A DNA stretch of 40,199 nt from an uncultured Anaeromyxobacter sp. (lineage in GTDB: Bacteria; Myxococcota; Myxococcia; Myxococcales; Anaeromyxobacteraceae): the NCBI GenBank assembly GCA_903855945.1, contig CAIOAK010000059.1, positions 1 to 40,199 of the forward strand, given 5' to 3'. The notes beneath the pieces were generated by a model. It was not told the origin of the DNA. It worked only from the letters and a program-made list of their open reading frames with translations, and searched no databases. Shown here piece after piece: positions 31,509-39,931 of the stretch (positions are counted from its first letter, which is position 1; each line of letters opens with the position of its first letter). The position numbers and the translations under genes were made by a program.

Positions 31509-32147
31509 CTACGGGACGAGCGGGAAGGTCAGGCGGGCGTGCCCCACCTTGGTCGCAGCGTCCGCGGAGATCACCCGACCGCGGAGGACGTGCTGCGCGC
31601 AGGCGACGAGCTCGTCGGAGGCGCTGCCCTGGACCTCCACCGGCGCATCGACGATCCGGATCTCGCCGGGTCGCGACTCGAGGTGCAGGATGAGGAGCGT
31701 GGGAGACCCCACGTCGTCCTCCCGGTCGGTCCCGGTCCGGCTGACCTTGCCCCGGCCGTGGCGCGACTGCGTCTCCTCGTCGAAGCACTCGGCGATCTGT
31801 TCCTGGAGCTCGGCCAGGTACTCCGCCACCTCGGCACCGACCGCCCCGAGCTTCGCGGCGCGGGAGGCGAGGGGCACGGCGCCCCAGGTCCCCTGCTCGG
31901 GCTTGGGCGGCGGCGGGTCGAAGACCGTGGGAGCCGCCGGACCCTGGGCGTTGGGGGCTCCGGGAAGCGCCTTGAGAGGCGGCAGGGGCTGCAGCTTGAT
32001 GTTGGACGGTGGAGGGGAGGAGCTCCCCCCGCCCACCGATGACATCAGCCCGTCGAACGAGGAGGACCCGTCCATGAGCAGGATGGCTGCGACGCAGGCC
32101 GCGCCCAGGACGACGATGCCGCCGGCGGCGATGAGCAGCTTTTTCAC
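31509..32147 (-). CDS. Membrane-anchored periplasmic protein, TonB/AgmX-like C-terminus
   Basis: 212 residues from a GTG with AGGAAGG upstream. N-terminal anchor MKKLLIAAGGIVVLGAACVAAILL, then a Ser/Pro-rich linker to about residue 100. The C-terminal domain has a helix with C (QEQIAECFDEETQSRHG), a beta strand (LLILHLESRPGEIRIVDA), a second helix with C (DELVACAQHVLRG) and a final strand (KVGHARLTFPLVP). This two-helix/three-strand plan with two cysteines resembles the TonB-C-like AgmX/PglI C-terminal domain found in myxobacterial proteins; similarity is by pattern only. Last gene of a three-gene operon with 9-bp spacing. Confidence 0.65.
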   Translation of the reverse strand: MKKLLIAAGGIVVLGAACVAAILLMDGSSSFDGLMSSVGGGSSSPPPSNIKLQPLPPLKALPGAPNAQGPAAPTVFDPPPPKPEQGTWGAVPLASRAAKLGAVGAEVAEYLAELQEQIAECFDEETQSRHGRGKVSRTGTDREDDVGSPTLLILHLESRPGEIRIVDAPVEVQGSASDELVACAQHVLRGRVISADAATKVGHARLTFPLVP

Positions 32148-32156
32148 GGCACCTTC

Positions 32157-32735
32157 CTAGCTCTTCTGGAGCGCTGCTTCGGCCTCGGCCAGCACCGCGG
32201 ACAGGGCGGCGTTGGAACGCCCCATCCTGGCCACCGCGGACCGCGCCTGGTCCACGCACTTCTTCGCGCCGTCCCGTGCCTCGGCCAGGGCCATCCGCGT
32301 CTCGGGCGACTCACCCGAGTTCATCGCGCTGGTCAGGTAGAGGAGGGGATACTGGCAGACCCGCGTGGTGTCGACGGGCCAGCGCTCCGTGTAGATCGCG
32401 TAGTTCTCGGCCTGGGCTGCGCCCAGCCGCGTCCGGATGTCGACGAACCGGGCCTCCGCGGCGGGATCGGCCTTGGCCGCCGCGTTGAGGCGCGCCACCA
32501 CCGTCGTGTTCCTCACCTGGAGGTGGAGGGCATTCGCCTTCCACCGGACCGCGACCACCTCGTGGGTGGCATCTCGCGTGGCCTTCCAGAGTGCCTGGTC
32601 GGCCGGCGTCCCGGGGGGAAGCGGAAGCGGGTCGGGCTGCTGGGTGGACGGCTCCTCCGGCGGCGGGGCATCGGCCCCCGTCGCGGAGCCCGCCAGGGTC
32701 GCCAGCACCACTCCGACCATCGCTGCGCGTCGCAT
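32157..32735 (-). CDS. Hypothetical secreted helical protein
   Basis: 192 residues. Signal peptide MRRAAMVGVVLATLAGSATGA, then a Pro-rich stretch (PPPEEPSTQQPDPLPLPPG) and a predominantly helical domain, e.g. ARLNAAAKADPAAEARFVDI and ALAEARDGAKKCVDQARSAVARM. Two cysteines (VCQYPL and KKCVDQ). No family recognised. Middle gene of an operon: 9 bp after the two-cysteine protein and 9 bp before the anchored protein. Shared expression and export suggest a common envelope process, but no activity can be inferred. Confidence 0.7.
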   Translation of the reverse strand: MRRAAMVGVVLATLAGSATGADAPPPEEPSTQQPDPLPLPPGTPADQALWKATRDATHEVVAVRWKANALHLQVRNTTVVARLNAAAKADPAAEARFVDIRTRLGAAQAENYAIYTERWPVDTTRVCQYPLLYLTSAMNSGESPETRMALAEARDGAKKCVDQARSAVARMGRSNAALSAVLAEAEAALQKS

Positions 32736-32744
32736 CTCGCCCCG

Positions 32745-33242
32745 TTACCAGTTCGTGAGGACGTTCAGGTTGAGCTGGATCTCGGACTCATCCTTGGCGG
32801 CGGCCGGGACCAGGTGCGCGTGGACCCGCATCATCCCGATGTTGATCCCCCGCTGGTGCTCGACCGAGATCACCTCGACCTCGATGTCGCCGCGGTCGGC
32901 CACGTCGCCGGAGGAGTGGTACTTCTTCCCGGCCTGCGTGACCATCGAGAGGCTCGCCTTGACCAGGTCACGGTGAGTGTAGGTCTGGACGGTGATCGGG
33001 TTCTTGATCACGAAGGTGACCGGCGCGAAGGACTTGAGCCCCTTCGGCGTGCCGTCGGGCTTCACGGTGAAGCTCACGACCTTGCCTTCGCGCTTCACGG
33101 TCATCGTGCAGTTGAACTGGCCGGTGACGGCTCCGCTCACGTCCCCGTTGCAGTTCATGTCGGGGCTGTTCGTCGGCTCCGCCGCGCGCGCGACGGGCGA
33201 GAGGAAGGCGGTGACGGCGAGGAGCAGGAAGAGGCGGATCAT
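32745..33242 (-). CDS. Small secreted two-cysteine protein (family member A)
   Basis: 165 residues from the ATG at 33242 with GGAG 8 nt upstream; fifteen further codons upstream are open but unsupported. Signal peptide MIRLFLLLAVTAFLSPVARA. The mature start has C-x-G-x-V-S-G-x-V-x-x-x-F-x-C (MNCNGDVSGAVTGQFNC), which the protein at 39461 shares, together with a mid-chain S-F-x-P stretch and a late R-x-x-A-x-L-[IV]-P-A motif. The two cysteines are well placed for a disulphide, and the rest is beta-rich. No named family known to me. First gene of a three-gene operon, with an extended -10 (TGCTAGACT) 71 bp upstream. Confidence 0.75.
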   Translation of the reverse strand: MIRLFLLLAVTAFLSPVARAAEPTNSPDMNCNGDVSGAVTGQFNCTMTVKREGKVVSFTVKPDGTPKGLKSFAPVTFVIKNPITVQTYTHRDLVKASLSMVTQAGKKYHSSGDVADRGDIEVEVISVEHQRGINIGMMRVHAHLVPAAAKDESEIQLNLNVLTNW

Positions 33243-38958: not shown

Positions 38959-39003
38959 CGTGTGGTTCTCCTTCGGGTCGGCGCGCCTTGTTGACGAAGC
39001 CGC

Positions 39004-39009
39004 AATGTA
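39004..39009 (-). promoter_or_regulatory. Candidate -10 (TACATT) of the multicopper oxidase gene
   Basis: On the minus strand, TACATT lies 45 bp before the ATG. Upstream only CTGTCC-like sequence is found at -35, so an activator may be needed. If transcription starts near 38997, the FNR box is centred at about -91.5, on the same helical face as class I sites. Confidence 0.35.
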
Positions 39010-39081
39010 CGGGCCTCTTTTGACAGGACAGGATGTCGCAGGCATGTCGGGCGAAGGGGGGACATGGGAATCACAAATTAA

Positions 39082-39095
39082 TTGATTAATATCAA
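39082..39095. promoter_or_regulatory. Perfect FNR/CRP-type box
   Basis: TTGAT-TAAT-ATCAA is the exact FNR consensus TTGAT-N4-ATCAA. A further TTGAT follows at 39099-39103, so that TATCAAA-A-TTTGATA (39090-39104) makes a second, overlapping palindrome. The box lies 124 bp before the multicopper oxidase start; the nearest plus-strand gene is 366 bp away. Regulation by oxygen or a related cue through an FNR/DNR-like protein is inferred; no such regulator is encoded in this window. Confidence 0.65.
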
Positions 39096-39281
39096 AATTT
39101 GATAACCTTATTGGACTGTCATATGGGCAATTTGCCCCAGTATTCACGGGCATTTGATGCGAAACACCCAAGAGTACGGGATCATACGTATGTGAGCCCC
39201 GAAGTAGAGAACTCTGGACGATCCACATCGACTACCCTGATTCAATGTCATTGGAGCGGGGTACCAGCATCGATTTTTATA

Positions 39282-39295
39282 TGACAAAAATGTCA
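39282..39295. promoter_or_regulatory. Inverted repeat TGACA-AAAA-TGTCA
   Basis: Perfect 5-bp arms with a 4-bp A-tract spacer, the same geometry (5-4-5) as FNR-family sites but with a different half site. It lies 166 bp upstream of the two-cysteine gene at 39461 and 324 bp from the oxidase start, so either could be the target. Confidence 0.4.
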
Positions 39296-39405
39296 CAGCG
39301 AACGGAACCTTACGCCCCAAATTAGACCGTGCGTATCAACATCCAGGAGCATGAAGAGCCGGAGGGTTCGCACCCGTCGGCGGGTTCACGGAAGGTGACA
39401 CACGG

Positions 39406-39460: not shown

Positions 39461-39931
39461 ATGATCCTTCCGATCCTCGCTTCACTCATCGTGACGGCAT
39501 CGCCGCCGGCTCCCTCCTGCACCGGCACGCTCTCCGGATCCGTCCGGGCCTCCTTCACCTGCGCCGCCGAGGTGGTCCGCGACGATCAGGGGCACGACTT
39601 CCTGGTGATCGGCGTGAAGGGCGACATCGAGGGCGTCCCCTCCTTCGTCCCCGGATCCTTCGACGTCACCGGACTGCTCCGCCCCGGGGTCTACACCCTC
39701 GAACAGCTGGGGTTCGGAAAGGCGAGCGTAGCGGCCGACGACCGGACCCTCTACACGGCGACCAAGACCACCGGCCAGCGTGGCGAGGTGACCATCTTCT
39801 TCTCCCGCGTCGATCCCGCGCCCGGCGGCAAGGGTGCGCCCCGCGTCCGGGGCACCTACCGCGCTCGCCTCATCCCGGCGGGCGGTGGCAAGAAGGGAGA
39901 GGTGATCGTCTCGGTCGACTTCGCGACCTGA
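39461..39931 (+). CDS. Small secreted two-cysteine protein (family member B)
   Basis: 156 residues from the ATG at 39461; no Shine-Dalgarno is visible. Short signal peptide MILPILASLIVTASPPAPS, then C-T-G-T-L-S-G-S-V-R-A-S-F-T-C, matching the C-x-G-x-[VL]-S-G-x-V-x3-F-x-C start of the protein encoded at 32745-33242. The alignment can be carried on through PSFVPGSF / KSFAPVTF, an R-G-[ED]-[VI] strand (GEVTIFF / GDIEVEV) and YRARLIPAG / VHAHLVPAA, so the two are paralogues. The chain looks all-beta. Function unknown. It is preceded by the palindrome at 39406 and followed 44 bp later by the anchored-protein gene. Confidence 0.72.
   Translation: MILPILASLIVTASPPAPSCTGTLSGSVRASFTCAAEVVRDDQGHDFLVIGVKGDIEGVPSFVPGSFDVTGLLRPGVYTLEQLGFGKASVAADDRTLYTATKTTGQRGEVTIFFSRVDPAPGGKGAPRVRGTYRARLIPAGGGKKGEVIVSVDFAT

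Follow-up and report, generated by a model that had tools for sequence, protein, structure and literature searches.

The multicopper oxidase locus

The window (the whole stretch of 40,199 nucleotides that was analysed) encodes an exported multicopper oxidase (MCO; Pfam matches PF07731 and PF07732), in which the complete set of copper ligands makes the use of O2 possible. A divergently transcribed gene for a small exported protein is located on the other side of an A/T-rich island (Table 1). The most likely start of the MCO gene is ATG 38958, where the predicted product begins with a signal-peptide-like N-terminus and a Shine-Dalgarno-like sequence is found immediately upstream; the start of the longest open reading frame (ATG 39228), which would include the FNR box described below within the gene, was rejected on these grounds. 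Because ATG 38958 is the likely start, the box is assigned to the region upstream of the MCO gene and not to its coding sequence. The MCO frame remains open on the minus strand (38959-39228) throughout the island, which may mislead automatic start annotation and hide the box in the gene. A related locus in another genome (L085, G001:C173 14102-22866) contains two tandem MCO copies, compared to the single one in the genome of the window; its small exported proteins resemble the products of the window genes at 31509-33242 and 39461, and the MCO locus looks broadly syntenic.

Table 1. Genes and sequence elements in and around the intergenic region upstream of the MCO gene
Feature	Coordinates	Strand or symmetry	Remarks
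Exported multicopper oxidase, 1019 aa	35899..38958	-	Copper-ligand motifs HLHG, HDH, HPMHPH and HCHINSHEDSEMM, complete
Shine-Dalgarno-like AAGGAG	38968..38973	-	Before ATG 38958
A/T-rich island	39000..39359		In the spacer that separates the two divergent genes; GC 0.39-0.51 in 120-base tiles
Predicted FNR-type operator TTGATTAATATCAA	39082..39095	Palindromic; TTGATATTAATCAA on the strand of the MCO gene	Exact pattern match
Overlapping perfect 6-1-6 palindrome ATCAAAATTTGAT	39091..39103	From third half site TTGAT	Sequence reading
Perfect dyad TGACA-N4-TGTCA, TGACATTTTTGTCA	39282..39295	Palindromic	Matches CopR/CusR copper-response consensus
WTGGGNCGTAAR element (TTGGGGCGTAAG)	39309..39320	-	Core WTGGGNCGTAA
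Small exported protein, divergently transcribed	39461..39931	+	Without Pfam or NCBIfam match

As proposed in the initial sequence-only reading of this DNA, the island contains a perfect FNR box, TTGAT-N4-ATCAA, the centre of which is located 130 nt upstream of the MCO start codon. The A/T-richness of its surroundings is equally clear, with a GC content of 0.39 in the tile 39060-39179 vs 0.71 for the entire window; this most A/T-rich part of the region lies around the box and could hold the core promoter. The third half site noticed in the same reading (TTGAT, 39099-39103) is present and forms a perfect palindrome with the ATCAA (39091-39095) that it shares with the exact box. It does not, however, provide a second FNR box, given that these half sites face outward at a distance of 3 bp and do not fit TTGAT-N4-ATCAA.

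The exact box appeared in 33 of 20,000 dinucleotide shuffles of positions 39060-39300 and in 12 of 20,000 such shuffles of the 502-bp intergenic region. The whole genome (4,068,513 bases in 213 contigs) contains a single copy, the one discussed here, compared to 0.22 sites predicted from local composition, a value that extrapolates the composition of one 40-kb window to the genome. These figures agree with the earlier claim that an exact match is improbable, the A/T-rich island softening the improbability relative to DNA of average GC content; uniqueness and chance estimates for the exact box are suggestive, and taken alone they are not decisive.

The WTGGGNCGTAAR element and the TGACA-N4-TGTCA dyad are features of this promoter beyond those considered in the sequence-only reading. 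The dyad was spotted before its match in the literature and occurred in 6 of 20,000 mononucleotide shuffles, a count for one of seven patterns scanned that is uncorrected for their number. The available part of one source gives TGACA-N4-TGTCA as the consensus of the Pseudomonas aeruginosa CopR and Escherichia coli CusR sites (PMC12428095), and slightly different forms of the CopR/CusR consensus appear in the portion available of another (PMC11195947). The CopR-like dyad is possibly a second, copper-dependent input to the MCO promoter.

Several other elements were considered for this region. Activation by FNR typically involves a site centred at about -41.5 relative to the transcription start. 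No sigma-70-like promoter was recognised in the region and no -10-like hexamer was found at class II distance from the box; the other boxed promoters also lack a clear one. There is no Rfam match, and the folding of the leader is barely better than that of shuffled sequences (z -1.81), so an RNA element was rejected, as were IHF, sigma-54 and CRP sites, for which the promoter contains imperfect matches only. The accessible text of PMC11841059 describes NmpRSTU, an oxygen-responsive system of Myxococcus that has a homologue in Anaeromyxobacter, and NmpR itself as an oxygen-responsive enhancer-binding protein with the consensus GCGCA-N5-TGCGC. An NmpR site was rejected in the MCO promoter, where there is a single match with two mismatches at -204, and the paired sites and sigma-54 promoter expected from that work were not found.

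FNR-like boxes and an FNR-type regulator in Anaeromyxobacteraceae

The genome encodes two proteins with a Crp-type HTH domain. The gene for one of these (L001, G000:C177) neighbours a tatA-like gene, and the protein is 25% identical to E. coli FNR in an alignment that retains the equivalents of Cys122, Glu209, Ser212 and Arg213. Its N-terminus contains a CxxC motif and a third cysteine, with a spacing unlike that in E. coli FNR, and its reading helix is PETLSR vs VETISR in the latter. Regulators of this type were found in 14 of the 16 family genomes that were searched, the two others being 74% and 80% complete, and all the cysteines (CxxC, the third N-terminal one and the Cys122 equivalent) along with ETLSR are invariant in the 14 aligned copies. 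The protein scores far below the cut-off of the NCBIfam Fnr model (PRK11161; 22.7 bits vs 228), and the nearest solved structure by sequence is that of DNR; for these reasons we refer to it as a predicted FNR-type regulator and not as FNR. The second protein (L002) lacks the reading residues and was rejected as a binder of the box. The search of the genome for FNR, DNR or CRP-type regulators that had been recommended along with the original observation thus yielded one FNR-type candidate with reading residues and conserved cysteines.

The scan for additional boxes, also recommended, was productive as well. The relaxed pattern TTGAY-N4-RTCAA is found 8 times in this genome vs once for the reversed control and, summed over the 16 family genomes, 151 vs 20 times, the reversed pattern being a control that preserves composition but not dinucleotides. 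By the calls of a crude codon-usage gene caller, according to which 88% of the sampled DNA is coding, 51 of the 52 sites in five family genomes lie outside genes (4 of the 51 overlap a called start codon). This genome also contains 15 single-mismatch sites that deviate from the FNR pattern, 10 of which are inside genes. The ispH site (L079) is counted as inside a gene in one tally and as intergenic, owing to the start-codon overlap, in the other.

Apart from the MCO gene, the genes preceded by a site in this genome are mostly those of anaerobic metabolism, namely the genes for the small subunit of a NiFe hydrogenase, for a QrcA/ActA-like and a c7 cytochrome and for pyruvate:ferredoxin oxidoreductase; of the remaining sites, one lies upstream of a cyclic-nucleotide/CBS-domain protein gene, one in the TetR/dinB intergenic region and one over the ispH start codon. 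Many of these associations recur: boxed QrcA/ActA-like and c7 genes are found in three species (also in G001 and G003), as are boxed hydrogenase small-subunit genes (also in G004 and G008), the pyruvate:ferredoxin oxidoreductase gene of G003 is boxed too, and the dinB/TetR box is present in G004 and G008. Other multihaem cytochrome genes are boxed in the family genomes. The distance from the box to the start codon is 59-146 nt in 15 other boxed promoters, a range that includes the 130 nt of the MCO promoter. By these sequence comparisons, the FNR-like boxes appear to form a coherent anaerobic regulon of which the MCO box is a putative member by both sequence and position.

Some sites might have other explanations. 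The TTGAC-type dyad between dinB and the TetR gene (L064, L165, L174), retained in three species, may be the operator of the TetR protein itself, and the TTGATGCAGGTCAA-like dyad over the ispH start codon (L079, L179, L188), also in three species, is probably due to the coding sequence. Two genes of G003 (L167, L171) encode long tandem MPNGL pentapeptide repeats, with TTGAC-N4-GTCAA about 170-220 nt upstream of each. In two species, the gene for a 649-aa exported protein of an unplaced family (L176, L187) is preceded by an FNR-like box at a distance of 59 nt from the gene start.

Conservation of the oxidase promoter

The pattern TTGAY-N4-RTCAA is absent from all nine other MCO-family promoters that were read, and two of the nine (L009, L028) contain a box with a single mismatch. 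The promoters of G002 (L011) and G003 (L010, L030), in which contigs end in or at the gene, were left out of the comparison, and the weaker MCO matches L014-L027 were kept out as well. In the sequence-only reading, two observations together were to speak against the box, namely a lack of conservation upstream of orthologues and the lack of an oxygen effect on expression; the former is what we observe. DNA similar to the promoter was not found in 98 relatives, and a plasmid search likewise gave no match. Because none of the nine related MCO promoters carries such a box, the link between MCO and the box would be a lineage-specific addition. The TGACA-N4-TGTCA dyad, with up to one mismatch allowed, is also absent from the nine other promoters.

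The core WTGGGNCGTAA, by contrast with the box, is present in 7 of the 10 MCO promoters (this one and L005, L006, L007, L008, L009 and L028), 334-488 nt before the MCO starts. G000, G004, G009 and G014 each contain a single WTGGGNCGTAAR, always before MCO; G001 contains 10 copies, part of them before unrelated genes (HNH-like or uncharacterised), the context having been examined for 26 of the 37 listed matches. We know of no published motif that is equal to WTGGGNCGTAAR.

Interpretation and comparison with known systems

The site at 39082-39095 is probably an operator of the single FNR-type regulator, which would place the MCO gene in an anaerobic FNR-like regulon. Under this scenario, the regulator would carry an oxygen-labile Fe-S cluster, its dimer would bind the site when oxygen is lacking, and binding in anoxia would alter MCO transcription. 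FNR-type control of the oxidase is plausible because the genome encodes the regulator and contains coherent boxes before anaerobic genes. The original proposal of an oxidase under an oxygen-sensing regulator holds to this extent, but not with respect to the other MCO promoters, from which the box is missing. If the operator works, we lean, and only lean, towards activation in anoxia as the likelier mode, since the 130-nt distance falls within the range of the other boxed promoters, which mostly precede anaerobic genes; repression, for which we would allow a somewhat smaller chance, is suggested by the complete copper ligands that permit O2 use.

One competing explanation is that an A/T-rich spacer spells the consensus by chance and that the gene is run by the WTGGGNCGTAAR element or the TGACA-N4-TGTCA dyad. 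The absence of the box in the nine other MCO promoters, compared with the presence of WTGGGNCGTAA in six of them, and the lack of promoter matches in the 98 relatives are in line with such an accident. The rarity of the box in the shuffled sequences and the low genome-wide expectation are not, nor is the fact that the lone perfect copy is intergenic and precedes a redox gene by a distance like that seen in the predicted regulon, so that we consider a chance match rather unlikely. A different possibility, in line with the repression raised in the sequence-only reading, is that an FNR-type protein represses the oxidase in anoxia by covering the core promoter and the enzyme is made once O2 returns. 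This would suit an enzyme with copper ligands complete for O2 reduction and a box in the most A/T-rich segment, a possible core promoter site, but no promoter was recognised, and the other boxed genes are mostly those of anaerobic metabolism, which FNR normally activates. Furthermore, Fe(III) oxide reduction, an anoxic process, depends on OmpB-type multicopper proteins of Geobacter according to the available text of PMC5566968. We regard repression of this kind as unlikely.

It is doubtful, too, that the site serves another cue of the CRP/FNR family, such as NO or redox state, through a DNR-like or HcpR-like protein. The PETLSR helix is close to PETFSR of DNR, which is also the best solved-structure match, and the delta-proteobacterial HcpR site is TTGAC-N4-GTCAA. 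However, DNR and HcpR are devoid of the FNR-type cysteines, whereas cysteines are invariant in the 14 copies aligned here, and the targets observed are fermentative or respiratory rather than involved in NO detoxification.

Returning to the operator of an FNR-type regulator, the MCO gene is best read as an ordinary new member of the predicted FNR regulon, possibly with a copper-plus-oxygen promoter, and most of this reading is routine prediction. A more elaborate version, to which we assign a low probability, is a two-signal gate in which a CopR/CusR-type input (copper) at -337 and an FNR-type input (anoxia) at -137 would have been added in this lineage to an older WTGGGNCGTAAR-marked promoter. 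Such a gate, if real, would imply that an 'oxygen enzyme' is made in anoxia and serves either electron transfer to the outside of the cell or the handling of copper where oxic and anoxic conditions meet. In a soil metatranscriptome, multicopper oxidase expression differed between oxygen-pulse treatments; the part of this report that is available mentions genes of Anaeromyxobacter, Geobacter and Pelosinus and leaves the genus of this one unstated (PMC6199725).

On a broader scale, the boxes suggest that Anaeromyxobacteraceae, among which there are facultative anaerobes able to reduce metals, have an FNR-type regulon. In the literature searched, mostly listings, we found no description of such a regulon for Anaeromyxobacter or Myxococcota, and none of a multicopper oxidase under FNR control. 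The MCO promoter suggests that one lineage has added a redox gene to its regulon. Synthesis of the oxidase in anoxia, if it occurs, would support a role of multicopper proteins in extracellular electron transfer rather than in O2 chemistry.

The components of this putative system resemble several known ones to different degrees. Like the outer-membrane multicopper proteins OmpB and MofA, the MCO is large and exported, and its host family includes Fe(III) reducers; the fibronectin domain ascribed to OmpB in the accessible portion of PMC5566968 is not detected by Pfam in the MCO. The copper boxes of CopR and CusR share with the MCO promoter the same perfect 5-4-5 dyad, here 337 nt upstream of a copper-enzyme gene, although this dyad is not found in the nine other MCO promoters. 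DNR and delta-proteobacterial HcpR have in common with the system described here the PE at the specificity positions and sites of the form TTGAY-N4-RTCAA, but differ from it in having no cysteine motif and in controlling nitrogen-oxide genes. E. coli FNR differs from the regulator in most of its sequence, in the N-terminal cysteine spacing and in the match to the NCBIfam model, and most of the other sites here are TTGAC-type or hybrid, unlike the E. coli box. Nevertheless, the exact operator consensus is the same, the equivalents of Cys122 and of Glu209, Ser212 and Arg213 are kept, and hydrogenase and anaerobic pyruvate genes are among the targets of the E. coli FNR regulon, as they are among the predicted targets here.
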